Shown here one piece after another: positions 1 to 32,055 of a stretch of 37,562 nucleotides of DNA (position 1 is its first letter; the number at the start of each line of letters is the position of its first letter). The notes beneath the pieces are model-generated. The model made no database searches. It was given only the letters and a program-made list of their open reading frames with translations, and was not told the DNA's origin. The stretch comes from a virus, in IMG/VR virus record IMGVR_UViG_3300034951_000027, positions 1 through 37,562 of that record. The stretch is one strand, 5' to 3'. Made by a program: the position numbers and the translations under genes.

Positions 1-465
1 AACCACGGTTCTAGTGCAGGAGCTATCTCCAGCCTAGTAACAATCTCTGGAGAGACTGGCCACATCACAGCTCCTCAGTTCAACGGACTTGCGACCTCAG
101 CCAACTGGGCTGACCTTGCAGAGAGATATGAGCCAGATGATGATTACGTGTATGGAACTGTACTTGCTATTGGTGGATCAAAAGAAGTAACACTTTACCA
201 ATCTGGAATGTCACTCGCAGGAGTGGTGTCGGATAAGCCGGCGTTTCAGATGAACGTAAGTGATGCTACTGATGGTTTTCCTTTCATAGCACTTAAGGGT
301 CGTGTTCCAGTAAGAATACATGGAAAGGCGAATAAGGGTGACTATATCATCGCTGACGATAGCGGTAAAGGTATAGCAGTTAAAGAGTTAACATTTGAGA
401 ACTCTCTCATATTAATAGGTATAGCTTTAAAAGACGGAAGCGATATTATAGAAGTTAAAATTTAG
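1..465 (+). CDS. Tail-fibre-like virion protein, C-terminal part (5' end outside window)
   Basis: The reading frame is open from base 1, so the gene begins upstream and only about 154 C-terminal residues are seen. The stretch ANWADLAERYEPDD, followed by a beta-rich domain (GTVLAIGG, GVVSDKP, GRVPVRI, GDYI), resembles the C-terminal domain seen at the end of many phage tail fibres and appendages, related to the Peptidase_G2/intramolecular-chaperone type. Such domains help trimeric fibres fold and are often cleaved off. The internal ATG at 148 should not be taken as the start, because the fibre motif already runs through upstream codons. The next gene starts 8 bp downstream after a good ribosome site (AGGAG), so the two are probably co-transcribed. 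The fibre assignment is fairly sure; the exact domain family is not. Confidence 0.65.
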   Translation, partial: NHGSSAGAISSLVTISGETGHITAPQFNGLATSANWADLAERYEPDDDYVYGTVLAIGGSKEVTLYQSGMSLAGVVSDKPAFQMNVSDATDGFPFIALKGRVPVRIHGKANKGDYIIADDSGKGIAVKELTFENSLILIGIALKDGSDIIEVKI

Positions 466-473: not shown

Positions 474-881
474 ATGGCAGCAATGGACCACGCAGCATTA
501 GACGTTTGGTTTAAAGATAATGCTAGAGATCAGTTAAGAACCTTTGACAAAACAATAACTATCACAGCCACTGTTTGGACACAATCAACTAACGATGCAG
601 GTGTTGGGACAGGAGTCACAGGGTCATCAAGTACAACATCCTCTACGACACAGAGGTGGCATCTAACCACAGCAGCATCTTCTGTTTTCAACAGTGATTT
701 AGACGCCGGTTTAGGTACCGGTTTAGTAGCTGAATCACAGGATGTTGCAGCATCTATTACCAACGCAGTGAGGTCTGCTGTAGACGCCATAGAAGGTCAA
801 ATAGGAAACGTATCGTTTAACGCACAACTTTGCCACAGCAGTTGTCACAGTAGTTGCCATAGTTCAAGAGGGAGAAGATAA
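474..881 (+). CDS. CHSS-repeat protein: candidate radical-SAM-modified (RiPP-like) virion protein
   Basis: 135 aa, start supported by TAGGAGATATTATG. Residues 1-118 are low in Cys and rich in Thr, Ser, Ala and Val, look like a small folded domain, and match nothing I recognise. The C-terminus is three Cys-His-Ser-Ser units in a row (residues 120-131) followed by RGRR. These hold the only cysteines in the protein. A compact Cys repeat at the end of a long leader-like region, directly upstream of radical-SAM genes, is the layout of RiPP precursors such as ranthipeptides (spaced Cys). It also recalls the His-Xaa-Ser (HxsA) systems, where two radical-SAM proteins accompany an H-x-S repeat protein. 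It overlaps the first radical-SAM gene by one base (TAATG), so translation is probably coupled. Its place after a tail-fibre gene suggests it may also be part of the virion. That it is the enzymes' substrate is inference. Confidence 0.72.
   Translation: MAAMDHAALDVWFKDNARDQLRTFDKTITITATVWTQSTNDAGVGTGVTGSSSTTSSTTQRWHLTTAASSVFNSDLDAGLGTGLVAESQDVAASITNAVRSAVDAIEGQIGNVSFNAQLCHSSCHSSCHSSRGRR
831..866 (+). repeat. Three in-frame CHSS codon repeats (candidate core peptide)
   Basis: Three consecutive 12-base units encode Cys-His-Ser-Ser. The units differ at synonymous positions: TGC/TGT/TGC for Cys, CAC/CAC/CAT for His, AGC/AGT/AGT and AGT/AGT/TCA for the serines. The amino-acid repeat is therefore exact while the DNA is not. 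The Cys-to-Cys spacing is four residues (CxxxCxxxC). Confidence 0.9.
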
Positions 882-2077
882 TGAGTATGCAAGATTCCTA
901 TTGTCAAGCCATGAGATATTCTGGACCAGAGTCACTTTCACTTAGAGACCAGACGAAATTCGATGTCCTGATCCAGATAGATGTTCTGTCGGGGTGCGAA
1001 CACAGTTGTACTGGTTGTTTTGTAAACAAACACAGTCCTGCGGATGTCGAGGGTCCATTACTAAGAGAGGCTAAGAGGCTTGCAGACGGTGTTAAAAGAG
1101 CCGGTTTAAACCTCAGGGAATTTGTTGTAGGTCCTACGGACTTCTTCTCAGCAAGCAACACTGAAAGCGTATTAAACAATAAGATAACACAAGAGATCTT
1201 AAGAGAGCATGTTAATGCACGTATAGCTACACCAGCTAAATTTGACCTGGTGAATATGAAAAAGTTCTACGACATCTTTAAAATCCTAGATAACCCTGAA
1301 AAGTACAGGGATGATATGATTATTGAATTTGTTATGCCGGTTGAAAACCCGGACACAATGCTTAACAATACAGAATATTTTGAAGCTGTTATGCGAAGAG
1401 TTGATTTCTTTAAGAATGAAACTCCCAAGAAGATAGACTGGTCTTGGACACTTCAATCGTCTTCTATTCTTAGCAGGACCGTATCTAAAGAAGAGTACAA
1501 TAAAATGTTAGATAAGTCTCTTAATGAATACGGGACTATCTTAGAAATGAACCCGGCATTCAGCAGGGCACCAAGACACAAACAAAAAGAGAACCTAAAG
1601 TCTTGGAATAACTATCTTAGCAGTGTTGTTGATTCTGACAACTACGACAAGGTAACAATGTCTATGGCCAACCTTAACTGTAACTCAATGAACTTCGTTG
1701 GTCTTACTGTTATAATGGGCAAAGACGGACCAGAGACTCACTTGAATGTGATGCTCCATGAGCAAGCCTTCTTCCTTACAAACCCAGGAACTAATGTAAC
1801 TGGCCTTAGTTTTGAAGAGATACTTGAAAGGCGTAATGAACTTATCCTTGATGGAATTAAAAACTTATCAATACATCCGTTGTATAAAGACTCTCCATAC
1901 TTAATATCTATGGCTAACAGATTACTATGGGAAGCTATAAAAGCTATGGACTTATCTTTGGACGAGGAGATTCTACCTATGGACGTTCTATCGCTGTATA
2001 ATCCTACAGAAGAGGGTGCACACTTATGGAACAAAGATGCCCTTAAAAGGGTGACATATCAATCAGGAGCTGCATAA
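881..2077 (+). CDS. Radical SAM protein 1 (GPTD subfamily, no C-terminal Cys cluster)
   Basis: 398 aa. The radical-SAM motif CxxxCxxC is at C39, C43 and C46 (GCEHSCTGCFV). It would bind a [4Fe-4S] cluster that cleaves S-adenosylmethionine to a 5'-deoxyadenosyl radical. In place of the usual GGEP segment after strand 2 there is GPTD (residues 84-87), shared with three other proteins of this operon. Those relatives carry C-terminal SPASM-like cysteines before an ECxLP motif. Here the matching region reads DEEILPM and has no cysteines, so the auxiliary cluster seems lost. The start overlaps the stop of the CHSS-repeat gene (TAATG), with GGGAGAAG upstream as ribosome site. The gene is likely the primary partner of the repeat protein because of this coupling (inference). 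The chemistry cannot be told from sequence; thioether, carbon-carbon or epimerisation chemistry are options. Confidence 0.88.
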   Translation: MSMQDSYCQAMRYSGPESLSLRDQTKFDVLIQIDVLSGCEHSCTGCFVNKHSPADVEGPLLREAKRLADGVKRAGLNLREFVVGPTDFFSASNTESVLNNKITQEILREHVNARIATPAKFDLVNMKKFYDIFKILDNPEKYRDDMIIEFVMPVENPDTMLNNTEYFEAVMRRVDFFKNETPKKIDWSWTLQSSSILSRTVSKEEYNKMLDKSLNEYGTILEMNPAFSRAPRHKQKENLKSWNNYLSSVVDSDNYDKVTMSMANLNCNSMNFVGLTVIMGKDGPETHLNVMLHEQAFFLTNPGTNVTGLSFEEILERRNELILDGIKNLSIHPLYKDSPYLISMANRLLWEAIKAMDLSLDEEILPMDVLSLYNPTEEGAHLWNKDALKRVTYQSGAA

Positions 2078-3132
2078 TGAGACAACAATCATATTACTAC
2101 CTAAACAATAAGAAGTATGTCTCATTATTGTCTAACTTAGATAGTTTATTGCAAGAGATCACAAATTTCTATCAACAACAAGCTAGAAGGAAGATTGTCA
2201 TTGTCGTACCAGATGATGCTATCTTAATAGAGGGGTCTATTGTCTCAGCTGCTAGGACTATCTTAGTCAAATATAACCCTATCATCAGTGATGACCAGAT
2301 AGGTGAGATGTTTGAAACTAAGTATTTCAGTGAAGTGGATAATCTTGAATACCTGAATAATGACGAGAAGGTGTTTTTAATGTTCTTTGTCGCCGGCCAC
2401 ATGGTTGATGTTCACAAGAAATACTCAAAGGCACTCCTTAAGTCTATAAATGAAGAAGAAAGAATTAATGACTTCATGGGTAAAGTTTATAAAAGAGATG
2501 TATTAGTTGGTTTTGACCCTGGGGATAAATTTAAAACTTGTGTTGAAAGGGTTGATGAATTCACGGACTCTTATGTAGATTACACAGAAACCCCAAGTTC
2601 TAAGATGTGGTCTTACGATCTATTGTTCTATGTCAACGATGTTGCACCTAATGAGTTGATCCTCTCTTATCTTAAAGAGAAGTTCACAATACACGGCTTA
2701 AAGAATATCAACGAACAATTGGCCACCTTCATACAAAAAGTTACATATATCTCCCCACTAATAGGGATGTTAGAGCACCTGGAAGAGTACCATGGCTTCG
2801 ATAAAACAAACTTCATATCTACTGTGTTTCACCAAGACAATCCAGTAATGGCTCTTTATGCTCTAAAGGATCTTTGGGTTCTTATGGAGAACACAGAAGG
2901 TTTTATAGATCTTCTTCAGAACCATGAGGATTGGGACTACTACGAGACCTACAGAGAATATAACCTGACATGGCCTATGATGATTAAATTAGTAGAGCAG
3001 GGATACACCGACACTACGATAGAGTATGTGAGAAACTATTGGGATCAGGTGGAGTTCTTACATAGACGTAAGTCTAGGATTCCATACCTTTTACACTCTG
3101 TTTTCCCATTAGTACCACCAACAGAAGGATAA
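2077..3132 (+). CDS. Unrecognised 351-aa protein of the radical-SAM operon
   Basis: I do not recognise this protein. It starts within the stop of radical SAM protein 1 (TAATG) with AGGAG seven bases upstream. It is rich in Tyr, Asp, Glu and Leu, looks soluble and mostly helical, and has no signal peptide, clear membrane segment or metal-binding Cys pattern. The N-terminal half contains a hydrophobic strand (KIVIVVPDD, about residues 39-47). Being sandwiched between radical-SAM genes with coupled translation, it probably belongs to the same modification machinery. It could be a substrate-recognition or scaffold subunit, but nothing in the sequence proves this. Confidence 0.75.
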   Translation: MRQQSYYYLNNKKYVSLLSNLDSLLQEITNFYQQQARRKIVIVVPDDAILIEGSIVSAARTILVKYNPIISDDQIGEMFETKYFSEVDNLEYLNNDEKVFLMFFVAGHMVDVHKKYSKALLKSINEEERINDFMGKVYKRDVLVGFDPGDKFKTCVERVDEFTDSYVDYTETPSSKMWSYDLLFYVNDVAPNELILSYLKEKFTIHGLKNINEQLATFIQKVTYISPLIGMLEHLEEYHGFDKTNFISTVFHQDNPVMALYALKDLWVLMENTEGFIDLLQNHEDWDYYETYREYNLTWPMMIKLVEQGYTDTTIEYVRNYWDQVEFLHRRKSRIPYLLHSVFPLVPPTEG

Positions 3133-3134
3133 AA

Positions 3135-3821
3135 ATGAACAAGCTACCACTAAGTCCGACAGATCTTGTGACTATATATAAGGAGAAGCTCACCAATAAA
3201 TCGTACGTTCTTATGATCGATTACGAGGGGTCTAAAGAAGTCCTAGGTGTTGAGCATATCTTGATCTATCTATCCAATACAGGGTTTACAGCAGGGTTTT
3301 CGTCTGTTGACGATGAGCTCTTGTTGAAGTACATAGGTCTTGACTTCCTTGTCGACTCACCAATATTGACTAGGGTTTGGGCGAATATCTTAAGAACCAA
3401 AGTAGGGGTCCCTTTATCAGATAAAGATGAACTCCTACTCGGTATCTTTAGTTTAGAGGATATTAAAAGCTTTATCTCAAACAATAAAGAAACTGTTGAG
3501 TCGCTGGAAAGGTCCTTAAGGTCAGTGGTAGTTGCCATTATTGATAACGCAATGGACGAGGAAGAGCTTACAGGCTCCGAGTCCGGGTTAGGTGTTAACG
3601 TAGGCTACTTGCTTCGAGACGCTATTGATGCTGTCATGGGTGTTATCTCTAAAAAGGGAATAAACAAACAAGTTGATACAAGTGTTTTTAACAATAAATC
3701 TAAATTCTTCGGTGGTGACATCTTCAAATGGATGTCTGATAATGGAACACTCAAGCTTGTAGCGTCTATGCTGCCTAAGGAACATGAGGTATTTTCTAGT
3801 GGTGCTATTAAACAAAACTAA
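3135..3821 (+). CDS. Unrecognised 228-aa protein of the radical-SAM operon
   Basis: I do not recognise this protein. It starts two bases after the previous stop, with AAGGA as ribosome site, and its 3' end overlaps radical SAM protein 2 by 38 bases. It looks soluble, acidic and helical, with no Cys, no obvious catalytic motif and no membrane segment. The N-terminal 50 residues (LSPTDLVTIY, then YVLMIDYEGSKEV) could be a small alpha/beta domain. Position suggests a helper of the radical-SAM enzymes, for example precursor binding, but this is only inferred from location. Confidence 0.72.
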   Translation: MNKLPLSPTDLVTIYKEKLTNKSYVLMIDYEGSKEVLGVEHILIYLSNTGFTAGFSSVDDELLLKYIGLDFLVDSPILTRVWANILRTKVGVPLSDKDELLLGIFSLEDIKSFISNNKETVESLERSLRSVVVAIIDNAMDEEELTGSESGLGVNVGYLLRDAIDAVMGVISKKGINKQVDTSVFNNKSKFFGGDIFKWMSDNGTLKLVASMLPKEHEVFSSGAIKQN

Positions 3822-4785
3822 AGATGGCTACTGGAGTAAGAGCAGTGCCAAAGAGATAGACTTCCTTAGGATAGAAGTTGTAGCCGACATACTTGATGGC
3901 TGCGACGCTAATTGTCCGGGGTGCTTCGTGCCCCGTAGGAACAAGAAGAGTGATTTATCAAAGCTGTATTGGCTTTTATCTGACTCCTCTTTTGCTGTGG
4001 ATGAACTGATAATAGGCCCAACTGATATATTCGATGCAACGAACTTTGATGACATAGTGTCTGATCCATTCCTTGCCCTTATATACAAGAAGACATCATT
4101 AGCTTATACAACAGCACTTAAACAAGATATCTCTGATATAAAGAGTAAGCTTGGCATCTTGTGGGGGTTGTATGACAACTCCACCCAGAAAGATATAGAA
4201 TTTAAAATTGTCTTAGATATAGACAGTCTAGTAGACGGCAACATGCCAGACGAGAAATTAGAGTTATTTAAAGCTGGCTCGGTCCAATTCAGAGTTAACT
4301 ACTACAAAGGTATGTTCGATAGAATATCCTACAATGAGCTGTGTGTAAAGTCTATGAGAGACTACAATACACCAATAACAATTGTACCAAGCTTTTTGAA
4401 CAATTCAAATAAGACCGGTAAAGTTTCAGAGCTTCTTAGTCATTTTAAGAAAGACCTACTGGACCAGGAAATACTCCCAGAGTTTAAAAGTTGGTACACT
4501 ATGTTTGACTCCAACTTTAACTCGTATGGCAGTTCCTCTCTTTCCTTCTTTGATAACAAACTATACTTAGCCCCCTTTATATTCGACAACATTCTACAAA
4601 GAGACAGCTCGTTCTTAGTAGAAGATATAAACAAAAGCACCTTAGCTGACAATCTAAGAGTCAGCCCTTGTGGTGACTGTAGGTTCACTATGTCTTGTGC
4701 TGAGAGGAATGTCCATCTTTATATGGACTCCAGGGGTTTAAAGGAATGCATCCTACCTAAGGAGTATATGTATGCCAATAATTAA
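3784..4785 (+). CDS. Radical SAM protein 2 (GPTD subfamily, SPASM-like C-terminus)
   Basis: 333 aa. Radical-SAM cysteines are C40, C44 and C47 (GCDANCPGCFV). GPTD at 78-81 replaces GGEP. Near the C-terminus C296, C299, C305 and C322 (CGDC, then C, then ECILP) form a short SPASM/twitch-like set that could hold one auxiliary iron-sulfur cluster. Such domains are common in enzymes that modify ribosomal peptides and proteins. The start lies inside the previous gene with AAGGA just upstream, and the end overlaps the next gene by 14 bases. It is clearly related to radical SAM proteins 1, 3 and 4 by the CxGCFV and GPTDxF segments. Substrate unknown; the CHSS-repeat protein is the obvious candidate. 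Confidence 0.88.
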   Translation: MRYFLVVLLNKTKDGYWSKSSAKEIDFLRIEVVADILDGCDANCPGCFVPRRNKKSDLSKLYWLLSDSSFAVDELIIGPTDIFDATNFDDIVSDPFLALIYKKTSLAYTTALKQDISDIKSKLGILWGLYDNSTQKDIEFKIVLDIDSLVDGNMPDEKLELFKAGSVQFRVNYYKGMFDRISYNELCVKSMRDYNTPITIVPSFLNNSNKTGKVSELLSHFKKDLLDQEILPEFKSWYTMFDSNFNSYGSSSLSFFDNKLYLAPFIFDNILQRDSSFLVEDINKSTLADNLRVSPCGDCRFTMSCAERNVHLYMDSRGLKECILPKEYMYANN

Positions 4786-5932
4786 AAACAACCTATATTA
4801 TGAACTAACCTCTGAAACCAAGACCAAACCAGTATCTGCTGTTAAAATACAGATGGATGTTTTAGATGGGTGTGAGCATAATTGTAACGGTTGTTTTGTT
4901 AATAGAAGAAATAATAACCCTAGTGTTAAACATCTAAAAGACTTCTCTTCGTTCATAGGGAGTATAACTGACGAAGGTGTTCTTGTTGATGAGATACTAA
5001 TAGGTCCTACAGACTTTCTATCATCCATAAATAACTATAGTGTTCTTTCTAATAAAAGTTTATTAGCTGTTATTAATAAGAACTCACCTATACTGGCATT
5101 TGTAACAACATTAATAAGTGGTGATTTAAAAAGATTCTGCGACTTCTTAAAGGATAATATAAACCTTGATACAGAGATTGAAATAGGTATCGCCACCAAC
5201 CCAGATGAACTTATGTCGTTAGAGTACTCAAGAATGGTAAAGTCCAAACTAGAGTTCTTGAGTAGCAATATAGAGCACGATATAACGTACACATTTATCA
5301 TCAACGTAGATGATGTAAGTAGAAGCTATGAGAGTTTACACAGTTTTGTTGTTAAGCAATTTGACACGACATTTGACTTGGTACCGTCCATAGCCAGAAG
5401 TAAAAACAAAGTTAGAATACTTGACAAAATTACTGGGTTAAACATTAACTACAACAGATTGGATGCCGGTAACAGTGCTAACAACATAATGGTGGATCAC
5501 TCTCACTCTGGGACAAACTTTAAGGTCCTAAACTTTAAGAGAGGCGACTGGTGGGTATCACCGTTCTTATATGAAAATATGGCGATATATGATGACCTGT
5601 TTAAGATAAACAAGTTCAGTGAAGTTCAAACAATGTTAGAGAGGCAGTACAGTTACGACACAGAGTGCTCCTCCTGTAACTTCTTAACATCTTGTTCTTC
5701 CAGGTTCATACCGACACTTATGAAGTATCTGGACACTGAATCATGTGTTTGTCCAAAAGAAAACATGACCAAGAACATCCACTCCTATAATAAGGCGTCG
5801 ATGGAGATGTACAATTGGGATGAATATAGTGTATCTTCTGATAAGAAGGGTTATAGGAAGAAATTTCTTATACACGATGAGGGTTCTGAGGAGCTGGTTA
5901 AAATAAAGAGGATCTACGATGGGGCTAGTTAA
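4772..5932 (+). CDS. Radical SAM protein 3 (GPTD subfamily, SPASM-like C-terminus)
   Basis: 386 aa. Radical-SAM cysteines C34, C38 and C41 (GCEHNCNGCFV) closely match those of proteins 1, 2 and 4. GPTD lies at 79-82. C-terminal cysteines C299, C302, C308, C325 and C327 resemble a SPASM/twitch auxiliary-cluster site. A tail of about 60 residues after the last Cys, rich in Lys, Tyr and Asp, is absent from proteins 2 and 4. The start overlaps the preceding gene by 14 bases, with AAGGAG upstream. The family resemblance points to tandem duplication within this operon followed by divergence, perhaps so that different residues or repeats of one substrate are handled by different copies (inference). 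Confidence 0.88.
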   Translation: MPIIKNNLYYELTSETKTKPVSAVKIQMDVLDGCEHNCNGCFVNRRNNNPSVKHLKDFSSFIGSITDEGVLVDEILIGPTDFLSSINNYSVLSNKSLLAVINKNSPILAFVTTLISGDLKRFCDFLKDNINLDTEIEIGIATNPDELMSLEYSRMVKSKLEFLSSNIEHDITYTFIINVDDVSRSYESLHSFVVKQFDTTFDLVPSIARSKNKVRILDKITGLNINYNRLDAGNSANNIMVDHSHSGTNFKVLNFKRGDWWVSPFLYENMAIYDDLFKINKFSEVQTMLERQYSYDTECSSCNFLTSCSSRFIPTLMKYLDTESCVCPKENMTKNIHSYNKASMEMYNWDEYSVSSDKKGYRKKFLIHDEGSEELVKIKRIYDGAS

Positions 5933-7031
5933 AGATAACTTCAGAGCAAATACTGTGGACAAGTGTCATGAAAGGTACGACAACCACGAGTACATAAAAC
6001 AACTTAAAGTAAACATGACTCTGGATATTCTAGATGGTTGTGTTCACAGTTGTCCAGGATGCTTCGTCAATAGAAGGGGAAACTCTGTATCGGACGAAAC
6101 ACTTGAAAGTCTGTACGGAATACAAGAGTTGTTTAATAGCAATGGAATAAGGTTCTCCTCGTTCATATTAGGTCCAACTGATATTTTCGGGAGCAAGAAC
6201 ACACTAGAGTTGTTATCAAACAAATACCTAATAAAAGCTTTTAGTAATTGCTCAACGATAGAGATGGTCTCTACCTTGGACATGAATACTTTTGAGCACA
6301 TATCTAAAGTAATAGACCTGTTCAATGCAATACCTAAACAGGCACAGGGCTTTATGTACGCTATGCAGGTTGTAGTAGACCCATACCAGTTCATAAGCAA
6401 CCCATTCTACAGAGATGAGAAATACTACAATCTGGTTAAAGTACTAAGCCTGTTCAACAATGACATTGATTTCAAATTAGTCTTCAATATGGAAGGTAAG
6501 GATTTGGACCTTGCAAAGGTATCTAAAATAGCCAAAGACGAGTGGGATTGTCTGGTTGAGCCTATCCCTTCTTACCAGAGATCTACTAAGAGTGGTAACC
6601 ACAGGGTTGTTACTGACCAATGGAAAAAGACAATAGCAGAGGCCTATTCTGAGGAGTCTAAGGAGTACATAGCTTTAACAATAGCTGATTCTAACCAAGG
6701 TGCTGGTCTTGAAATGACGTACGTTCTCAGTAAGGGTGAGTTCTATTCACCTGCATTCATCTACGATGTGGCTACGATAAGGGACGAAAAGTTCCGTATA
6801 AAAGACATTAAAGATATAAACTCCTGGACAGAGATTAAGAAAGACCTATATCTTGACGGTATGAAGTACATGGTAAAGACCGAGAGCTGCTCGGATTGCC
6901 CTAGGAGACATATCTGTTTAAACAAATCTGTGTTAAACTACATGGAACATTACAAGTTCACAGAATGTGTATTACCAATGAGTGTACTGTTGAATTATAC
7001 TAACGACGATATAACTGCTAAGGATAAATAA
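5919..7031 (+). CDS. Radical SAM protein 4 (GPTD subfamily, SPASM-like C-terminus)
   Basis: 370 aa. Radical-SAM cysteines are C41, C45 and C48 (GCVHSCPGCFV), and GPTD is at 85-88. C-terminal cysteines C324, C327, C333 and C350 (CSDC, HIC, ECVLP) match the SPASM-like set of proteins 2 and 3. It overlaps protein 3 by 14 bases, with AGAGG before the start. It completes a run of four paralogous enzymes. The ECVLPM motif here aligns well with EEILPM in protein 1, which shows that protein 1 descends from a form with the cluster. Substrate not known. Confidence 0.88.
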   Translation: MGLVKDNFRANTVDKCHERYDNHEYIKQLKVNMTLDILDGCVHSCPGCFVNRRGNSVSDETLESLYGIQELFNSNGIRFSSFILGPTDIFGSKNTLELLSNKYLIKAFSNCSTIEMVSTLDMNTFEHISKVIDLFNAIPKQAQGFMYAMQVVVDPYQFISNPFYRDEKYYNLVKVLSLFNNDIDFKLVFNMEGKDLDLAKVSKIAKDEWDCLVEPIPSYQRSTKSGNHRVVTDQWKKTIAEAYSEESKEYIALTIADSNQGAGLEMTYVLSKGEFYSPAFIYDVATIRDEKFRIKDIKDINSWTEIKKDLYLDGMKYMVKTESCSDCPRRHICLNKSVLNYMEHYKFTECVLPMSVLLNYTNDDITAKDK

Positions 7032-7040
7032 GAGGGCGCT

Positions 7041-8063
7041 ATGGATGTGACTAAAATAATACTTGATAACAAGCGCCCAATGATAGGTGAAATAGAGTTG
7101 ACACTCTTTGAGAATTGTCACCTCAACTGTTCATTCTGTCACCACGACAAGAAGTCTCACGTTGGTATTACACCGGTGGAGATACTATCTAAGACAAAAC
7201 AGGTCGAAGAGTTCCTGGTCAAGATGGGTAATCATGTGGACACCGTTCAGATTAACATGGTTGGTGGTGAGCTGTTCCAAGATAGGATGTCCCACCTATA
7301 CCCAACGTATCTTGAGTTGCTTATAAGGATTAAGGAGATATACGACAGACTTGGTTATGACATACAGGTTGTATGGGTAACATCCTTTCAGTTTAAAAAG
7401 AGAGAGCTTGTACAGGGGTTGCTTGACGACCTCAATGCAATAAACATACCCTCAAGCCTCATAGCTTCATACGACTTTGAAGGTAGGCCAACCAAAGGCT
7501 CTTACGCTACAAACGTAGATTATTTTGCAGACTATATTATTTCAATCAATATGGTTGCAACCACAGAGTCCATCATCAAGTTCATGGGTATTGAATCGGA
7601 CGATTACTTCGACTACCTCTACAATAAGTTTGATAACTTCTTCTTTGATGATTACATCCCAGATAAGGGTGAAGATCACCAGATACCTTCCGACTCGTTG
7701 TATTTGTCGTTCATGAAGTATCTATATAGAAAGTACCCAGACATCGCCCCATACGGGGATTTGATAAAGAACGACCATAACAAGATGCATTGCATGTCAT
7801 TGAATAAGGTGACAATCTTCCCAGACAACTCAACATCTAACTGTCGATGGGACAGGTACACTGATGATGACTTCAATACTCCGTTAAACAGGGCTGACAA
7901 CACATCTATGATGACTAGCTTCATGGATGAGTATGGTTGCCTTTCATGTAAACATTTCGACAGGTGCGGTTTCAGGTGTTATACACAATGGGATTGGACC
8001 AACCGAGTCAGGGATACTCCTGATTGTGTGATGAGGATGTGGTTTGATAGTATTTTATGTTAA
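7041..8063 (+). CDS. Radical SAM/SPASM protein 5
   Basis: 340 aa. Radical-SAM cysteines C26, C30 and C33 (NCHLNCSFCHH) and a GGE motif at 75-77 make this a more ordinary family member than proteins 1-4. The C-terminus holds a full SPASM-like set: C251, C268, C300, C303, C309, C313 and C329, enough for two auxiliary [4Fe-4S] clusters, with an extra Cys as the last residue (C340). SPASM proteins usually act on peptides or proteins (sactisynthases, AnSME, PqqE, MftC). Ribosome site AGAGG lies upstream and the end overlaps protein 6 by 20 bases. It is not an obvious close relative of proteins 1-4. Confidence 0.87.
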   Translation: MDVTKIILDNKRPMIGEIELTLFENCHLNCSFCHHDKKSHVGITPVEILSKTKQVEEFLVKMGNHVDTVQINMVGGELFQDRMSHLYPTYLELLIRIKEIYDRLGYDIQVVWVTSFQFKKRELVQGLLDDLNAINIPSSLIASYDFEGRPTKGSYATNVDYFADYIISINMVATTESIIKFMGIESDDYFDYLYNKFDNFFFDDYIPDKGEDHQIPSDSLYLSFMKYLYRKYPDIAPYGDLIKNDHNKMHCMSLNKVTIFPDNSTSNCRWDRYTDDDFNTPLNRADNTSMMTSFMDEYGCLSCKHFDRCGFRCYTQWDWTNRVRDTPDCVMRMWFDSILC

Positions 8064-9060
8064 GACAACAGAGACGTGTAATCTAAATTGCGAACATTGT
8101 TTTACCTCTGGCAGTAAGGGGAGGAAGATATTCTTCAATCCTGAAGATACAGCTAAGTTTGTAAACCACTGGGGTAATGAAGAGATACACATAGATTTCC
8201 ATGGCGGTGAGCCTTTCTTGGCACCACTAGATGATATGAAAAGATTTCATACATTGGTTCGAGATGTTAACCCGAGTTCGTCTATCGGTGTGACCACCAA
8301 CTTGACATTCAAACTCACACCAGAGAAAGTATCGTTTATTCAGAATGAATTATCCGGTAGGATCTGCACGTCTTGGGACGAAGGGATACGTTGGACAAAT
8401 GTCAGACAATATGACCTATGGAAGAAGAATGTAAGGTTGTTGATTGGTCTCGGTGTTGATGTTAAAGTAAATGTTTCAATGAACACCAAGTTAATGAAGC
8501 GCAGTCCAGCAGGAGTCCTTGCCCTGTTTAGGGAGTTAGGTATAAGAGAGATTGCCTTTGAAAGGCTTACCCATGATGGGACCGCTGAAAGAAACCCACA
8601 CATATTCCCAACCAACAAGGCAATTGATGATTGGATATGGGAGATGGACAAGGTAAACGACAGGGATTATTTCGACAATGTACTTCTTGAATCTGTCTAT
8701 GCAAAGTTTGAAGGAAAAGGAAACAGAAACTCTACCTTTTGTAGAGGGTGCGAAAAGATAATGTTTACTATCAATGCAGATGGTACTGTTGCAGGTTGTC
8801 CTAATTCAGCACCAACCGCCCACTACGCCACTATATATGATAGTAAAGAAAATGTACTGGCAAGTCCTGAAAGGGCGTGTATGATTGCCACTGAAGCCTA
8901 CCAAAACCCAGAGTGTATAAGCTGTGAGGTTTTTGGACAGTGTGGTGGAGATTGTTACAAGTTAAACTGGGACACACAGTGCCCAGCACCTAAAAGGTTA
9001 ATGTATGGACTTAATAATAAAACCAACAGAGCTATGCAACTTCAAGTGCACGTTTTGTAG
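8044..9060 (+). CDS. Radical SAM/SPASM protein 6 (TTG start)
   Basis: 338 aa. This is the most canonical enzyme of the set. The N-terminal motif is C12, C16 and C19 (CNLNCEHCF), GGEP is at 54-57, and a textbook SPASM pattern follows with C233, C236, C252, C279, C291, C294, C300, C304 and C313 (including CGGDC). The start appears to be TTG at 8044 inside the preceding gene, with GAGG upstream; no ATG precedes the Cys motif in frame. It overlaps radical SAM protein 7 by 56 bases. The organisation resembles anaerobic sulfatase-maturase/HxsB-type peptide-modifying enzymes, but I cannot assign the subfamily. Confidence 0.87.
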   Translation: MIVFYVKTTETCNLNCEHCFTSGSKGRKIFFNPEDTAKFVNHWGNEEIHIDFHGGEPFLAPLDDMKRFHTLVRDVNPSSSIGVTTNLTFKLTPEKVSFIQNELSGRICTSWDEGIRWTNVRQYDLWKKNVRLLIGLGVDVKVNVSMNTKLMKRSPAGVLALFRELGIREIAFERLTHDGTAERNPHIFPTNKAIDDWIWEMDKVNDRDYFDNVLLESVYAKFEGKGNRNSTFCRGCEKIMFTINADGTVAGCPNSAPTAHYATIYDSKENVLASPERACMIATEAYQNPECISCEVFGQCGGDCYKLNWDTQCPAPKRLMYGLNNKTNRAMQLQVHVL

Positions 9061-9976
9061 TTCAACGGACATATCATCAGAGGACGCTAATTACCTTCCG
9101 GTTGAGAGTGTCTTTGAGTTCCTGGATAATAACCCAGACACAAACACAATCATTGTGAATGGTGGTGATCCGTTGATGATGAAACCAGACTACTATTGGC
9201 AGATAATAGAGTATCTTGACTCTCATGAAATGAGTACCTCGATATCTTTCACAACTAATCTTTACCCTTTTTACGTTAATCCTGACAAGTGGTCAAAACT
9301 CTTTAACCATCCAAGGATGGGGATAACAACGTCCTTTCAGTATGGAGGGGGCCGTCTGAAAGGTGATCGATCTGTGTTCACTGCTGAGGACTTTTGGAAT
9401 GTATCCGACGCTATGTTGGACCATGTAGGTTATCGTCCAGGGTTTATATCGGTTGTCGTCGATGGTGAGCAGGACCTGGCAATTAAGAATGTCGAGTTAG
9501 CGAAAGAAATGGACGTTGAGTGTAAATTAAACTATGCAATGGCGTCCGGTATACAAGATAGACCTTTACTTCTGGCAGACACTTATCGAGTTTATCTCGA
9601 TATATATGACATGGGTTTGGCAGAGTGGGAGTACAATACCAAAGACATTATCAAGTCAATGCGTAACGAGGCCACAGAATGTCCTAGAAACAGAAGTTGT
9701 GAGACAGGCATACGATGCCTTCAACCCGATGGAGATGAGTACACCTGTGGGGCATTTGCTGACGATAAAGAGTATCCTGTAGGAGACAACTTCCGAGACG
9801 ATCCTGAATTGCTTTCAATGAATGATAAGTGTTTTACATGTCCATTGTTTACACTATGTAATGGGTGTGCCAAAACAATTAAAGATCACAAGCGATTTAA
9901 CATGCAAGGTGAGCATTGTTTTAGAATGAAAGAAATGCAAACTGAACTGTTGGAGATGCGTGATGTTGGACTGTGA
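9005..9976 (+). CDS. Radical SAM/SPASM protein 7
   Basis: 323 aa. Radical-SAM cysteines C11, C15 and C18 (LCNFKCTFC) begin almost at the N-terminus, so the start at 9005 is fixed even though it lies 56 bases inside the previous gene. GGDP at 53-56 is a variant of GGEP. Downstream cysteines C226, C232, C238, C248, C276, C279, C285, C288 and C305 make a rich SPASM-like region able to hold two auxiliary clusters. The end overlaps the cupin gene that follows. Substrate unknown; likely a protein or peptide by family. Confidence 0.87.
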   Translation: MDLIIKPTELCNFKCTFCSSTDISSEDANYLPVESVFEFLDNNPDTNTIIVNGGDPLMMKPDYYWQIIEYLDSHEMSTSISFTTNLYPFYVNPDKWSKLFNHPRMGITTSFQYGGGRLKGDRSVFTAEDFWNVSDAMLDHVGYRPGFISVVVDGEQDLAIKNVELAKEMDVECKLNYAMASGIQDRPLLLADTYRVYLDIYDMGLAEWEYNTKDIIKSMRNEATECPRNRSCETGIRCLQPDGDEYTCGAFADDKEYPVGDNFRDDPELLSMNDKCFTCPLFTLCNGCAKTIKDHKRFNMQGEHCFRMKEMQTELLEMRDVGL

Positions 9977-10349
9977 GAAGGATATTTTACAAAACGGAAC
10001 TGACTTTTATTTTATTGATGATAAAGGATTAGACTATAAGATTGAACAACCAGAGGCAGTGATAAAAGTTGCAGAGGGTAGGCACACTGTTAAAGTTGAA
10101 GGCCTTGAGTCGTTCTATGATTATGGAAAGACGGTACACGGTTTCATTTCTCCCGCTGGTTCGGTGTCATTTAAAACGCACGTTGACCCTGTGGATCTTG
10201 ATATAAAGTGTCTTCACGGGCGCAAGTGGATGGACGTATCTGGTGTTATCCGGTATGCCACAGAAGGTGTTGTGATTTTCGTACGTAATAACGTACCACA
10301 TAGGGCGATCAATACCTGTCGCAGTGTGTCACTCAGCATAGAAATATGA
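9963..10349 (+). CDS. Small cupin/JmjC-like (possible Fe(II) oxygenase) protein
   Basis: About 128 aa. I prefer ATG 9963 because GGAG lies seven bases upstream; GTG 9960 is possible. Motifs suggest a double-stranded beta-helix: PAGS then SFKTHVDPVD (HxD, H74 and D76 counted from the GTG), a turn GRKW, and VPHRA with the distal His (H114), followed by a strand SVSLSIEI. This H-x-D...H order is the metal triad of cupin_8/JmjC-type 2-oxoglutarate oxygenases, though the protein is shorter than usual enzymes and could instead bind a substrate or metal. It sits between two radical-SAM genes and overlaps both (ATGA with the next), so it probably acts in the same pathway, for example hydroxylating a residue (inference). 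Confidence 0.65.
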   Translation: MLDCEKDILQNGTDFYFIDDKGLDYKIEQPEAVIKVAEGRHTVKVEGLESFYDYGKTVHGFISPAGSVSFKTHVDPVDLDIKCLHGRKWMDVSGVIRYATEGVVIFVRNNVPHRAINTCRSVSLSIEI

Positions 10350-11233
10350 ACGTATCCATAAACCCATCTTACTTTTGCAACTTCTCTTGTAGCTTCTGTT
10401 ACTTGACGAAGGAGCAACTTAACAGTAAGACAAAGGTCTCCATAGACGAGCTAGATAAGAGGTTGTCAGAAATCCCTGTCATAGACTATGTGGACCTGTA
10501 TGGTGGTGAGTTTGCCACCCTCCCAAAAGCATACGTGTCAGAACTAAAAGCTACAATAAGAAAGCACTATACTGGTGAGATCAATATAGTGACCAACTTC
10601 TCTGTGATGAGAGATGAGCTATTTAGTGATGATATCTCTCTGGCTGTCTCATATGACTTTAAGGCAAGAGAGAAGCACGAAGATGTTTTTATGAATATGT
10701 TAATGAGTCCTAAAGAAATATCAATTCTTATACTGGCATCTCCTGAAGTTCTTGAGATGAATGTGGATGAGATGATACTTCAATTAAACATACTAGGACA
10801 ACTGAAGTCTGTTGAGATAAAGCCGTACTCACAGAACCAGTCAAATTCATTAGAGATAGACGGTAAAAAGTTTGACAGATTTATACTTGACTGGATCAAC
10901 TCAGATATTGTGAAGAACTTTATCTTTACAAATGAAGATAACCTAAACAAGGTCTTAGATGGTACAAGAAATGCCTTCTCTGATGATCATGTCTATATCA
11001 CACCAACTGGTAAGTTTGCTGTTCTTGAGTTTGACGATAACGACAAAGAGTTCTTTATGGAGCTTGACAGTATAGACCAGTACTATGAGTGGTCTAAGAA
11101 AGAGAGAGATAACATCTACCCGGGTTGTTACGATTGCAACTATCTCGGTAGATGTCTGACAGAGCATTATAGGAAACTGTCTTGCTCTGGACACAAGGAG
11201 TTAATAGAGGCATATGAAGGACTGGAAGATTAG
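10346..11233 (+). CDS. Radical SAM protein 8
   Basis: 295 aa. Radical-SAM cysteines are C11, C15 and C18 (FCNFSCSFCYL), with GGE at 53-55. C-terminal C261, C264, C270 and C280 (GCYDC, GRC, SC) form a short SPASM/twitch-like set. The start overlaps the cupin stop (ATGA) and no strong ribosome site is seen, which implies translational coupling. It is the last of eight radical-SAM genes in about 10.4 kb. Sequence does not reveal substrate or chemistry. Confidence 0.87.
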   Translation: MNVSINPSYFCNFSCSFCYLTKEQLNSKTKVSIDELDKRLSEIPVIDYVDLYGGEFATLPKAYVSELKATIRKHYTGEINIVTNFSVMRDELFSDDISLAVSYDFKAREKHEDVFMNMLMSPKEISILILASPEVLEMNVDEMILQLNILGQLKSVEIKPYSQNQSNSLEIDGKKFDRFILDWINSDIVKNFIFTNEDNLNKVLDGTRNAFSDDHVYITPTGKFAVLEFDDNDKEFFMELDSIDQYYEWSKKERDNIYPGCYDCNYLGRCLTEHYRKLSCSGHKELIEAYEGLED

Positions 11234-11627
11234 ACAAGAGATGTATCATCGTCTCAACAATGATTTTAAAGATAATCTAGATGATAAAGATGTACAGGTA
11301 AGAGAAGGAACTATTATAGAAGATTGTGTGGATTACATCCAAAAGCCAAAGGACTTAACGGGGTGGATGTATCCGGCGAAATCTTATGTAGTAGCTCTTT
11401 GCTACGCCACCTGGTTGTCTGAAGATTTTGATGAAGACTTCCTAGGTCTCTTAAACGACCCCGATCTATTGTACGGAAATGACCCTTACTTTGTCACATA
11501 TGACGACAGTAAAGATATGTACGATACTATTATAGAAAGACTTGGTTTACCATTACCTATGACTGGTGTGGTTCCAGATATAAAGAACTACTACTTAGAC
11601 GAGTTTATGTTAAACAAACCCAAATAA
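11214..11627 (+). CDS. Unrecognised 137-aa acidic protein
   Basis: I do not recognise this protein. It begins 20 bases inside radical SAM protein 8 and ends 8 bases before the lysis-like genes. It is acidic, with many Asp and Tyr residues, has no membrane segment, and contains two isolated Cys. Segments such as WMYPAKSYVVALCYATWL (about residues 43-60) look like an amphipathic helix. It may be the last member of the modification operon or an unrelated small phage gene. The start at 11214 has GAGG close upstream; ATG 11241 is an alternative with a poorer site. Confidence 0.65.
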   Translation: MKDWKIRQEMYHRLNNDFKDNLDDKDVQVREGTIIEDCVDYIQKPKDLTGWMYPAKSYVVALCYATWLSEDFDEDFLGLLNDPDLLYGNDPYFVTYDDSKDMYDTIIERLGLPLPMTGVVPDIKNYYLDEFMLNKPK

Positions 11628-16972: not shown

Positions 16973-18109
16973 ATGCCTTTACCATCAAGTGGTAAGATTA
17001 CTACACAAACATTTAGAGATTTCTTTGAAATCAGTTCGTCAACTCCAATCAGTAGTTCTGACTGGTATCGTGGTGGCCCTTACGTTAGGGCCAACTACCA
17101 GACTGGGAATGGTAATAGTTCCATTAACAATCAGGTACCTACAAGCGGAAGGATAACACTAAGCGATTTGTATGGTGTGTACAAGGTTGTCCCTGCTAGT
17201 AGTCTTACACCAGGTAACTCAACCGAACAAGACATAACACCAAATCCACCCAACTATCCTAACACCCCAGACGAACCAGCTGCACTTGGTGGTGATGGTA
17301 ATAATACCAATGTTGGCCCTCCAGATCCATGGGCTAACCCACCAAGCACAACAAATGCTACTAATCAGGGTAATGGACCAATGAACCCACCAAACAATGA
17401 TTACGGTGCGGGACCAGCTGGTGCCAATCAAGACCCGTATCAGAATACAGCCACCAATAACGTATCCAATGGTGGCACGGTTGGCTATCAGAACAGTCCG
17501 GACGCAGCACTGCCTCCAGCTCTTAGAGACCCTTATGCGGCCAACCAAAACCCTCCGACTGGAAACAACAACTATACCTTCTACACTCCTGGGAACACCA
17601 ATCCGGGCAATCCTAACCCAGGCAATCCTTCAGACCCGGGTCAGTTTGGAAATGGAGATTTAAACCCCGGAGGTAGTAATCCACCTGGAAATAACCCGGG
17701 AAATTGGACATATGCAGACCCAAAACCACCTGGAAACTACAACTACAATTCCTCCAACCAGGGCAATGGACCAATGAACCCACCAAACAATGACTATGGT
17801 GCGGGACCATCAGGAACCCTTCAGGATAGTTATACAAACAATGTCACTACCAATACATCTAACTTTGGTAATGCAGGATATCAAAACAGTCCGGATCTTG
17901 GCGGCGTACCGGGAACCCAAGACCCTTTCGCAAATCCCGTTAATACTAACAACCCTCCAAACGAGACGGCAACGCCACCGACATACCCAGATAGTAGTTT
18001 AGCTGGAGATGAGCCGGCGCCAATAGGTGACGGTAGTGACGCTACAGGGACCCCGGACGAAACAGGAGGCAACCCCTCTTACTATGTTAATCATGAGAAA
18101 CTTGTATGA
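16973..18109 (+). CDS. Pro/Asn/Gly-rich repeat virion appendage protein
   Basis: 378 aa, no Cys, AAGGAGATT before the start. The N-terminal 80 residues (LPSSGKITTQTF, SGRITLSDLYG) resemble the short beta-motif found at the start of many phage appendage proteins. From residue 90 on it is dominated by Pro, Asn, Gly and Thr, with collagen-like PGNPNPGNP tracts. Two copies of a block of about 65 residues share an identical NQGNGPMNPPNNDYGAGP segment. Such low-complexity, extended chains are likely exposed on the particle. Its stop overlaps the start of a 2-oxoglutarate oxygenase gene (ATGA), with a second oxygenase next; proline hydroxylation of this protein is a reasonable inference. Confidence 0.72.
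   Translation: MPLPSSGKITTQTFRDFFEISSSTPISSSDWYRGGPYVRANYQTGNGNSSINNQVPTSGRITLSDLYGVYKVVPASSLTPGNSTEQDITPNPPNYPNTPDEPAALGGDGNNTNVGPPDPWANPPSTTNATNQGNGPMNPPNNDYGAGPAGANQDPYQNTATNNVSNGGTVGYQNSPDAALPPALRDPYAANQNPPTGNNNYTFYTPGNTNPGNPNPGNPSDPGQFGNGDLNPGGSNPPGNNPGNWTYADPKPPGNYNYNSSNQGNGPMNPPNNDYGAGPSGTLQDSYTNNVTTNTSNFGNAGYQNSPDLGGVPGTQDPFANPVNTNNPPNETATPPTYPDSSLAGDEPAPIGDGSDATGTPDETGGNPSYYVNHEKLV
17363..17557 (+). repeat. Intragenic repeat, copy A (Pro/Asn-rich block)
   Basis: First copy of a repeat of about 195-205 bases inside the Pro-rich virion gene. It begins with the codons for NQGNGPMNPPNNDYGAGP and ends near ANQNPP. It matches copy B at 17756-17962 most closely over the first 55 bases and again around GYQNSPD. 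Confidence 0.8.
17756..17962 (+). repeat. Intragenic repeat, copy B (Pro/Asn-rich block)
   Basis: Second copy of the block described at 17363-17557. The opening 18 residues are identical between copies, later parts diverge but keep the order YxNN-TxN-GYQNSPD-DPxAN-NPP. The boundaries are approximate because they were read by eye. Confidence 0.78.
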
Positions 18110-18687
18110 ATATACCAGCACACAACCCAAGCGCCTCTACAGCCTGTCACTACAGTGGCGGGTTTACTGAAGATGAGCTTGAGGAGCTTGATAAGTATCT
18201 AAACTCTCTGATGACTTTCAAGGCGGAGGTTGGAGACATAAAAGGACCTGCGCCTGTAAAGACAAGGGTGAGTGACGTTGCCTTTTTTAAGCCAGAAGAG
18301 CTTCCATGGTTCTCTGTGCGTATGCACGGGATTATTGACAAGATCAATAAGGATTGGTTCAAGGTTAATATAGATCATATAGGTGAGGGCTATCAGTACA
18401 CGGAGTATCATGCAACAGAGGGTGGTCACTACAACTGGCACGTAGACTCTCACAATACTTTTACCGAGACAACTAGAAAGTTATCTATGATTCTCGCCCT
18501 TAATGATTATAAGGATTATAAGGGTGGTGAGTTTAAGGAGCGCCTAGGTGGAGGCACAAAGACTTGGAAACTAAATCGTGGTGACATTCTAGTAATACCT
18601 AGTTATGCTTTGCACAAAGTAACAAGGGTATCTAAAGGAACTAGAAAATCTATAATCTGCTGGGTCAGTGGACCGCAATATATATAA
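18106..18687 (+). CDS. Fe(II)/2-oxoglutarate oxygenase 1 (prolyl-hydroxylase-like)
   Basis: 193 aa. The double-stranded beta-helix motifs are clear: YTEYHATEGGHYNWHVDSH with iron ligands H112 and D114, RKLSMILALN, GGEF, RGDILVIPSYALHKV with distal ligand H170, and R180 with S182 to bind 2-oxoglutarate. This is the prolyl-4-hydroxylase/PiuC-like superfamily that hydroxylates protein side chains using O2. The start overlaps the stop of the Pro-rich repeat protein (ATGA), so the two are translationally coupled. That physical link suggests the Pro-rich protein as its substrate (inference). Complete; no key residue missing. Confidence 0.85.
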   Translation: MNIPAHNPSASTACHYSGGFTEDELEELDKYLNSLMTFKAEVGDIKGPAPVKTRVSDVAFFKPEELPWFSVRMHGIIDKINKDWFKVNIDHIGEGYQYTEYHATEGGHYNWHVDSHNTFTETTRKLSMILALNDYKDYKGGEFKERLGGGTKTWKLNRGDILVIPSYALHKVTRVSKGTRKSIICWVSGPQYI

Positions 18688-18696: not shown

Positions 18697-19383
18697 ATGA
18701 GTGATCTTGATTTAAGAAAGATGAAAGACCCATTTGTTAAGGCAAACATAAACACTAGCTTCATAGCGTGTTATGACGGGGCATTCTCAGACAAGTTTTG
18801 TGATGATACTGTAGCATTGTTCCATCACCTTCAGAGTAAGTATGGAGATCAACATCCTGATGAAAACGACAACCCTATGGTTAACCATAAGTTTAATAGC
18901 GTCGGCCACAGGAAGGACAATTCAAGGTTCTTCCAGCAGATAGCTAACGAGTGGGACGAGGAAGATAGACAGGATAACATTAGGTTGTGTAAAACATTCT
19001 ATGACGGTATAGATGAGTACTTGCAAAAGTACATAAAGTCCATAGGTAAAAGTCTTGGTAAGCTTGAAGCAGATTGTTTTAAGGTTCATCACTACCCACC
19101 AGGCGGACACTTCTCGATCTTCCATCACGAACATAGTGGTGAGAATGACAGGTACAAAAGTAGAGTTCTAGTGTACATGGTGTACCTAGGTGAGGACATT
19201 CATAATGGCGAAGGGACAACTGAGTTTATTTATCAGGGCATCCACGTCAAACCAAAGAAAGGTAGGTTAGTAATATTCCCTGCAGATTTCACACATACCC
19301 ATAGAGGTAATCCAACATACCAGCAAGAGAAGTACATTGCTACTGGCTGGTGGTTAACGGAAGGATCTAACGGAGTTTATTAA
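18697..19383 (+). CDS. Fe(II)/2-oxoglutarate oxygenase 2 (HxE variant)
   Basis: 228 aa, start after AAGGATGAGAG. Core motifs are HHYPPGGHFSIFHHEHSGE, where H143-x-E145 would replace the usual HxD, then SRVLVYMVYLGED, GEGTTEF, KGRLVIFPADFTHTHRG with distal H200, and EKYIATGWW. The HxE carboxylate and the FTHTHRG segment are typical of a phage-enriched group of 2OG oxygenases. The substrate is not known; adjacency to oxygenase 1 and the Pro-rich protein suggests the same target or a second site. It ends in TAATG overlap with the next gene. Confidence 0.82.
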   Translation: MSDLDLRKMKDPFVKANINTSFIACYDGAFSDKFCDDTVALFHHLQSKYGDQHPDENDNPMVNHKFNSVGHRKDNSRFFQQIANEWDEEDRQDNIRLCKTFYDGIDEYLQKYIKSIGKSLGKLEADCFKVHHYPPGGHFSIFHHEHSGENDRYKSRVLVYMVYLGEDIHNGEGTTEFIYQGIHVKPKKGRLVIFPADFTHTHRGNPTYQQEKYIATGWWLTEGSNGVY

Positions 19384-31600: not shown

Positions 31601-32055
31601 TCAACATGACAAACGCCATTAGAAATCTTCATAACAAAGGTCTCAGGAACACATCGGCACATATCTTTGATGGTCTTCTAGTCACTCCGTTGAGAGCTGA
31701 AGAAGCTGCGAGAGAATTGAACGATGTATTCATGAAGGTAAACAAGCACCCTAAGAGTCACTTAAAGTCTATGCTTAAGAGCTTACACTTTGAGCTTGAC
31801 CCAGCAGGAAATGTTATAGAAGATCCTAACAACCCACTTCCAGAAGGTAAGGTTGGGAAGGAGCGTTTCCTAAGGAGACTCCTTCCAGACGGTTCGGCTT
31901 TTGCAGAGGAGCATGGCTTATCAACATGGGATAAGAGGCTAGATCGTTACGCTTATCACATGGATCCTGAGTTAAACATAGCAGTGTCTACTATAAACAA
32001 TAGAAGAGACAATGCTACCAAGGTATTGCACGGCGCCTTACAGTTCTTCTTTTAA
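28630..32055 (+). CDS. Putative virion-associated single-subunit RNA polymerase (N4/T7-type)
   Basis: 1141 aa, start after ACAGGAGTACTT. Signature elements of T7-family polymerases appear in the right order. A segment NTPHGVHNAGLDMI (about 490) resembles T7's NTAWKINKKVL. A variant of the DxxGR block follows at 587-595 (DYFYGNNNR), then GNYQSNKLARSLL. Motif A is IDGLTNGMAH with catalytic Asp D724 (compare T7 DGSCSGIQH). Motif B is R804-GFA-K808-SPVMIFG-Y816-G, whose R/K/Y spacing equals T7 R627, K631 and Y639. Motif C is HIFDGLL with D1014. The length is close to the N4 mini-vRNAP core (about 1100 aa). Lying last in the virion/ejection gene run suggests it is packaged and injected, as in N4 (inference). 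Confidence 0.78.
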   Translation: MPLGKITAQSANRGPTPEEIKIMEERKAGIKNTEALNVDSQTEDAVNSVLPNLDQIHERSLPSSSGDPVSAAGGVDVPEGRELAAAIGREQYSLAPEILRRSPGTAFEDPNLLREEEDALLETFALQEGVSKDRVATDPALYEKFGRYLGAQTDTLNQEKYFEYTSEGKAGSGRKVPTPWLSPKFVQENTGVAVLRTPEGGEVQTRDFGPSISKNMQDFSNRASEEVNKTLNDSFNPANLKSQQDLSRKIQESSGLNPETIDEFMYTLVNNYAAVREGNTDASKFWSDVFLHSVLSHTRKNMWRQREASTKSATDKAKSPDSNEDIMSGLADDNAIGRMALTSMGFESPTKDQVQMAGSLARNIVEYTFQEDDPSGGMVDTNNGERPKGFEHRSLFRTIKVPGVNKKGQAVDNLLTVLTREGELVAEKLEPLTNKIIPSSSRTVRFSERETTTRDAKVRKTASLKDVEQGDVENQRVNLDVMNNTPHGVHNAGLDMILGILSNPQAVAGLDSQGFMNIAGNGFGDKGSFGKRFGLTVYRDDYGKAIKNEDGTVKYKDNSGDRNKDLILKDTIKWATDNKDTEMFFYDYFYGNNNRMMVDQTQGNYQSNKLARSLLEAGIKEVYSLSNPRHVKLLKAGIMKRFGHDKKSIEDTANLFDGSIREFQRMVGTIAGDGGVELVKLAGSEEGFASLSAIAEAVTLAAALKVHNGGGSDVYKSGFYVEIDGLTNGMAHSSMQAGDINTARSTNIFSKNEFDRAVERGEVEGLDVYDRTFATMIDHAESSGDKSVISFLSALESGDSKLGRGFAKSPVMIFGYGAGDAVIDLSVKAYFKDLFTEKPGLLNTIIKDIGEGGVEKVIDRLSESINVALKSDFSLIKELTDTLQSIGNDASIQGFGLSVPLINGGRSNFGKIEFDVDYDSRHRYHVGGSKAAIGKDGSPYVRKRVEFSTYKTSREMNPLSSLDKRNYKGELKKSYKAATQAVILNHANDNINMTNAIRNLHNKGLRNTSAHIFDGLLVTPLRAEEAARELNDVFMKVNKHPKSHLKSMLKSLHFELDPAGNVIEDPNNPLPEGKVGKERFLRRLLPDGSAFAEEHGLSTWDKRLDRYAYHMDPELNIAVSTINNRRDNATKVLHGALQFFF

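Follow-up and report, generated by a model that had tools for sequence, protein, structure and literature searches.

A widespread phage module links radical-SAM enzymes to a protein with a conserved (CHxS)3-R[GS]RR tail

The IMG/VR virus record IMGVR_UViG_3300034951_000027 (positions 1 to 37,562, the whole stretch analysed here and called the window below) carries an operon in which a gene for a small protein ending in Cys-His-x-Ser (CHxS) units is followed by a series of genes for radical S-adenosylmethionine (radical-SAM) and radical-SAM-like proteins. An earlier note on the window had treated it as a single odd locus; this was too small a picture, as we found 113 non-redundant loci of the kind, and the gene set is a widespread module across unrelated phages of very different size. 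We propose that it is probably a phage-specific protein-maturation module, which modifies the CHxS tail of a probable virion protein. Because the tail motif is invariant and its linkage to the enzymes is strict in both directions, the tail is very likely the substrate on which the enzymes act.

The CHxS-tail protein is encoded at 474..881 (plus strand) and has 135 residues, of which residues 120-135 (nt 831-878) form the tail, CHSSCHSSCHSSRGRR. As the earlier note had described, the protein ends in three CHSS units and RGRR, and C120, C124 and C128, all inside the tail, are its only cysteines; the coupling described there to the first radical-SAM gene, rs1, is likewise present as an overlap of stop codon and ATG in TAATG. 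When IMG/VR was scanned with a DNA pattern for this tail, at least 120 stretches matched, and almost all of them encode protein C-termini of the form (CHxS)3-R[GS]RR-stop. Of the 137 distinct proteins retrieved with the pattern, 136 carry exactly three units at the very end of the chain, the sole exception being truncated by a contig end. Since the scan itself requires CH, CH, CH and RxRR, tails were recounted, as a guard against ascertainment bias, in loci to which rs6, u3 or the N-terminal region of the CHxS protein had led, and all 79 distinct R[GS]RR tails again had exactly three units. The three-unit C-terminal motif is not due to chance. In the operons of large phages (type 1), no positions of the protein other than C, H, S, R, G, R and R of the tail are invariant or nearly so, and the remainder is divergent, with a mean column identity of 20%. 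Both AGY and TCN codons are used at the Ser positions; selection therefore acts on the protein and not on the DNA.

Members of the family are about 125-310 residues long. Type 1 proteins and those of window-type operons (type 2) are homologous over their last 60 residues (E 5e-22, scored partly from the tail itself), and their N-terminal parts diverge; the final 43 residues of the window protein match phrog_35144 of PHROG. An AlphaFold model of the window protein consists of a helix, a beta hairpin and a second helix, with the tail at low confidence (predicted local distance difference test, pLDDT, of 51-55 for the final residues). This fold found no match in BFVD or the PDB, and sequence profiles gave no convincing PDB match. 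A tblastn search of phages with the CHxS protein returned nothing, probably because of low-complexity masking together with the N-terminal divergence. One locus (L137:7832-8512) encodes a CHxS protein in which CH units form five blocks in a row, separated by NVPV or NVV spacers and closed by the usual ARGRR end, a natural amplification of the motif.

The linkage between tail and enzymes was followed in both directions. The search that the earlier note had suggested, for C-terminal (CHxS)n-RGRR proteins near radical-SAM genes in viral databases, found such genes in 107 of the 113 loci; of the other six, L167 starts at a contig edge and the remaining five end less than 2 kb downstream. Where a CHxS locus extends for 3 kb or more in both directions, radical-SAM genes are always present (25/25), and where it extends for 8 kb or more downstream, it has three to nine enzymes (26/26). 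In the reverse direction, 37 of 42 loci chosen by rs6 with 10 kb flanks show a CHxS gene, and the remaining five, which had appeared to be without one, hold two CHxS genes each farther along the contig, so that all 42 long rs6 loci carry the tail. Loci chosen by u3 show it in 24 of 25 cases, the last being resolved on its own contig. The two arrangements that the earlier note had said would count against it, CHxS proteins away from radical-SAM genes and enzyme clusters lacking a CHxS protein, were thus not found wherever the flanks were long enough.

Among 84,980 bacterial and archaeal species genomes, the pattern gave 51 matches. True CHxS C-termini occurred only on contigs of metagenome-assembled genomes (MAGs), where they adjoin operon genes with the exception of one cut-off case, and three of these contigs also carry a terminase gene; a cellular origin of the loci was rejected on these grounds. 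The rest of the matches are internal and arise by chance, mostly in GC-rich genomes and without Ser. One MAG, Rhodobacteraceae Water_Bin34 (L164, L176, L188), includes several phage contigs, among them two CHxS contigs with terminase genes, which represents phage contamination. Five further loci (L178, L156, L175, L185 and L189) lie on contigs binned with Bdellovibrionota or relatives, one of them 382 kb long, and may be phage or cellular.

Searches with rs6 and u3 led to jumbo phages of Agrobacterium, Sinorhizobium, Burkholderia and Pseudomonas, which share a core of the JmjC-like cupin gene (cup), u2 and u3 with small phages. Cultured carriers include Sinorhizobium phage Phosso, Agrobacterium phage Atu_ph07 and Burkholderia phages FLC6 and SURPRISE13. 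The loci of Atu_ph07, Phosso, SURPRISE13 and DT01 have a (CHxS)3-R[GS]RR protein amid several radical-SAM genes, with a cupin gene adjoining (in the DT01 tail the last Ser is replaced by Ala), and FLC6 and FLC8 match the same module region. No description of a CHxS/radical-SAM system was found in the open-licence literature. The SURPRISE13 (S13) paper lists cupin, radical-SAM and 2-oxoglutarate (2OG) genes without interpretation (PMC11898562), and radical-SAM open reading frames are placed under 'other genes' in the paper on RP12 and RP31 (PMC5468394).

The shared core runs in the order cup-rs6-CHxS-u2-...-rs5-...-rs7-rs8-u3. In type 1, tail genes are followed by cup, rs6, CHxS, u2, a gene for a 370-residue protein, rs5, further genes, rs7, rs8 and u3; rs6 thus lies directly 5' and u2 directly 3' of CHxS. 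Type 2 starts with a tail-fibre gene and one or two CHxS genes, and continues with rs1, u1, u2, rs2-rs4, rs5, rs6, rs7, cup, rs8 and u3. The simple gene caller behind this survey misses some CHxS genes in GC-rich phages (for example L006 and L044), which were shown to be present by other means. In some type 2 operons the second half is inverted: rs6, rs7, rs8 and u3 lie on the strand opposite CHxS in L083 and L130, as do rs5 and cup in L130. The gene set is complete in both loci despite the strand switch, which argues for selection on content beyond the inheritance of an operon alone.

In the window, thirteen plus-strand genes joined by overlaps or separated by gaps of a few bases run from 474 to 11627 as one 11-kb operon. 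Eight of them encode CxxxCxxC proteins, as the earlier note had counted, and from their sequences four are firm radical-SAM proteins: rs5 (7041..8063), rs6 (8044..9060), rs7 (9005..9976) and rs8 (10346..11233). Against a Pfam PF04055 cut-off of 29.5 bits, rs7 scored 33.2, rs8 30.3 and rs6, taken with its frame neighbours, 29.5; rs5 reached 16.5 bits, but matched phrog_1802 at 2.7e-24. The other four, rs1 (881..2077), rs2 (3784..4785), rs3 (4772..5932) and rs4 (5919..7031), belong to a paralogous and divergent group (group A), with CxxxCxxC invariant in 89 members. They score under the PF04055 cut-off or not at all, and their profile-profile similarity to rs5, rs6 and rs8 is weak (E about 1e-5, control 0.14), and calling them 'radical-SAM-like' is therefore more cautious. 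The SPASM-like cysteines that the earlier note saw in most of the eight proteins are full and invariant in rs5, rs6 and rs7, and rs6 exceeds the cut-off of the SPASM model TIGR04085 (30.2 against 27 bits). Four cysteines are found in rs8, as a twitch-like C-terminus, and in rs2-rs4; a C-terminal CxxCx5C...C is present in 96% of group A members, but rs1 has CxxxCxxC only and lacks a C-terminal cysteine cluster.

Comparison with curated models places rs6 and rs7 closest to SPASM enzymes that modify peptides or proteins, namely PapB, the anaerobic sulfatase maturase (anSME) and the cyclophane maturases DynA and YhhB, together with HxsB, for rs6, and DynA and HxsC for rs7. For every curated maturase family the scores lie far under the cut-off, and membership in these families is therefore rejected; from these profile similarities, a mode of action like that of the PapB, anSME, DynA, YhhB, HxsB and HxsC families is nevertheless likely for rs6 and rs7. 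In the His-Xaa-Ser (Hxs) system, reportedly described by Haft and Basu, the repeat protein HxsA is accompanied by HxsB and HxsC. The likeness lies in an H-x-S repeat protein beside two radical-SAM enzymes; H-x-S is contained in every CHxS unit, and in profile comparisons rs6 weakly resembles HxsB, as rs7 does HxsC. The CHxS module differs in the Cys before each His, in having exactly three units and R[GS]RR at the C-terminus, in its three to nine enzymes and in being phage-borne, and the scores (28.9 against 370 bits for HxsB, 28.0 against 267.9 bits for HxsC) place it outside the Hxs families. The best curated model for the window rs6 is PapB (46.4 bits, 3e-12, full length), and ranthipeptide maturases of the PapB and SCIFF/CteB type resemble the module in having SPASM enzymes and a Cys-containing repeat substrate. 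PapB joins Cys to Asp or Glu (PMC9413430); these residues are absent from the CHxS tail, the score is far from the cut-off of 340 bits, and the module has neither a short precursor peptide nor any recognition element that could be found. DynA, DarE, YhhB and FxsB, the enzymes of dynobactin, darobactin and other cyclophane-forming pathways, offer a further comparison, with DynA as the best curated model for rs7 (15/15 members) and a match to 22/22 rs6 members; here too scores are under the cut-offs (38.7 against 450 bits), and the CHxS tail is Trp-free and set in a phage structural context. The CXXX-repeat radical-SAM target family TIGR04115 was also rejected (32 bits against an equivalog-domain cut-off of 350). 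QhpD, a radical-SAM enzyme in the maturation of quinohemoprotein amine dehydrogenase, installs several thioethers in a protein subunit, and its model TIGR03906 matches 7 of 22 rs6 members; unlike the module, QhpD is a single enzyme that makes Cys-Asp/Glu links in a bacterial enzyme complex.

The resemblance to anSME, which modifies protein Cys or Ser and is the best PDB relative of rs6 and rs7, raises the alternative that rs6 makes formylglycine out of the CHxS Cys (or Ser), and that the resulting row of aldehydes reacts with amines of the host surface or the virion. The anSME structure is the best solved full-length relative of rs6 (3.9e-10), TIGR03942 matches all 22 rs6 members, and the last unit, C-H-x-S-R, is spaced like the sulfatase motif C-x-P-x-R. 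However, the score is 39.9 bits against a cut-off of 349.45, the third position of the last unit, where the sulfatase motif has its diagnostic Pro or Ala, usually holds G, S or T, and one enzyme would be enough where the module has three to nine. We consider this outcome improbable.

Invariant Cys and His residues could also belong to a metal site. His-rich tips of phage spikes bind metal, and three CHxS units, possibly repeated over a trimer, might bind Fe, Zn or Cu at the tip, with the radical-SAM proteins building or inserting a metal centre or a peptide-derived cofactor; this account would fit the tail and baseplate gene neighbourhood, and rs7 weakly resembles some cofactor enzymes, MoaA and NirJ among them. 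Yet Ser at every fourth place and R[GS]RR, which metal binding does not need, are kept nearly as strongly, and the closest curated models of rs6 are peptide and protein maturases. To our knowledge, phage metal tips also do without such enzymes, and we regard a metal-binding tip as unlikely.

A third alternative places the target elsewhere, in a host protein, lipid, nucleotide or small molecule, with the CHxS protein as regulator, scaffold or delivery partner of an enzyme complex. It draws on the weak viperin-like matches of rs5-rs8, on the two or more core proteins without assigned function and on the fact that no tail modification has been shown. The viperin matches are under the cut-off (22.1-31.8 against 180 bits) and lie mainly over the radical-SAM core, and the PADLOC matches mostly cover part of the protein, so that a prokaryotic viperin or other defence system was rejected. 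An invariant Cys/His/Ser tail is moreover hard to explain for a scaffold, and SPASM enzymes of known function mostly modify peptides or proteins. We think such a target very unlikely.

The cupin-like gene noticed earlier in the run, cup (9960..10349), encodes a protein with an HxD...H triad that is invariant in 24 sequences, and the JmjC_2 profile matches all 24 members (best 3.1e-11); the oxygenase-like reading was missing from the earlier single-locus picture. Its PDB matches include the histidyl hydroxylase MINA53 at 3.5e-5, with plain cupins scoring higher. In triad and JmjC_2 similarity it resembles the ribosomal oxygenases MINA53, NO66 and YcfD, which hydroxylate protein His or Arg, and differs as a small, single-domain form. 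It is a probable Fe(II)/2-oxoglutarate protein hydroxylase, as predicted from sequence. The remaining operon genes are u1 (2077..3132, 351 residues, no assigned function), present in type 2 operons, and the core genes u2 (3135..3821, 228 residues, cysteine-free), which has a confident AlphaFold model (pLDDT 87), and u3 (11214..11627, 137 residues, phrog_20737), the last gene of the module. That u1 and the 370-residue protein of type 1 are a single family was not supported. Two genes annotated as dihydrofolate reductases lie within the SURPRISE13 module (L008:12485-13662), possibly encoding reductases of the same pathway.

Gene context points to the virion. Directly upstream of the operon, at 1..465 on the plus strand, lies the C-terminal part of a tail-fibre-like protein (Peptidase_G2/tail fibre PHROG), in agreement with the tail-fibre neighbourhood noted earlier. 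In DT01 and SURPRISE13 the module comes after spike/baseplate and structural genes, and in Phosso and Atu_ph07 it adjoins the gene of a giant structural protein. According to the available text of the paper on Atu_ph07, most virion proteins fall into coding sequences (CDS) 31-76, 170-215 and 284-329 (PMC6102473). The CHxS protein of this phage is gp170 (the numbering agrees with portal gp198, prohead core gp204 and sheath gp132/140), so that the cluster 170-215 starts at the CHxS gene; as far as that text goes, the boundary is suggestive of a place for gp170 in the virion. From these contexts the CHxS protein is quite probably located there.

A protein-maturation module of this kind would work as follows. 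The 135-residue protein would be made with a folded N-terminal part and a flexible (CHSS)3-RGRR tail. In the infected cell, several radical-SAM enzymes, of which at least rs5-rs8 are predicted to hold auxiliary iron-sulphur clusters, would act on the tail, at the side chains of Cys, His and Ser in its three CHxS units, probably forming intramolecular links; the recognition element would consist of RGRR and the conserved region at the C-terminus. The JmjC-type protein may hydroxylate a residue of the same tail, His and Arg having precedents, and u2 and u3 may be binding or chaperone partners. Once finished, the protein would take its place as a small component of the tail, fibre or baseplate. 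Candidate chemistries with precedent in the nearest enzymes are a Cys thioether, a cyclophane and formylglycine, and JmjC-type hydroxylation would be a fourth. The crosslinking, tip stabilisation or chemical arming suggested in the earlier note may be among the outcomes.

Several points weigh against this proposal. No modified peptide has been seen so far, so that the idea of the CHSS repeats as enzyme substrate, advanced in the earlier note, has gained support from conservation and linkage and not from an observed modification. The CHxS protein is folded and, at about 125-310 residues, not a short precursor; the core includes no protease or exporter; and no recognition element of the kind known for ribosomally synthesized and post-translationally modified peptides (RiPPs) was found, with u2 giving no PDB fold match and u3 no convincing relative. 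The distance of the window enzymes from all curated maturase families tells in the same direction, and the window cup scores 14.5 bits against a JmjC_2 cut-off of 22. The available text of the Atu_ph07 paper does not name gp170, and only the cluster boundary coincides with it (PMC6102473).

Further genes of the window lie outside the module. Two adjacent 2OG-Fe(II) oxygenase genes (18106-18687 and 18697-19383), followed by an acetyltransferase-like gene, have similar counterparts within the module in SURPRISE13 and DT01, and their products may target the same virion protein or a different one. A 378-residue Asn/Pro/Gly-rich protein with internal repeats is encoded at 16973-18109, downstream of an S74 tail-fibre gene. 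At 28630-32055, a 1141-residue protein resembling virion RNA polymerase (phrog_2206, 9.9e-19) adjoins a 1345-residue virion structural protein, which by sequence suggests that the phage carries an N4-like ejected polymerase.

Radical-SAM maturases that stand next to a substrate with repeats are a known kind of arrangement. New here are the occurrence in phages, the enzyme count, the fixed (CHxS)3-R[GS]RR substrate and its strict conservation across unrelated phages, and we know of no phage in which several radical-SAM enzymes form a line directed at one of its own proteins. It is conceivable, at somewhat less than even chances, that the module is a categorically new system, common to phages of very different size, in which a radical-SAM assembly line and a JmjC-type hydroxylase write a multi-step covalent structure on the C-terminus of a virion protein; its product would be a chemically built tail tip or a receptor- or membrane-active element, with chemistry outside the known classes. 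If the tail is modified, the module would add a new layer to virion biology and offer a large new supply of enzymes that modify peptides and whose substrate is known, short and fixed.

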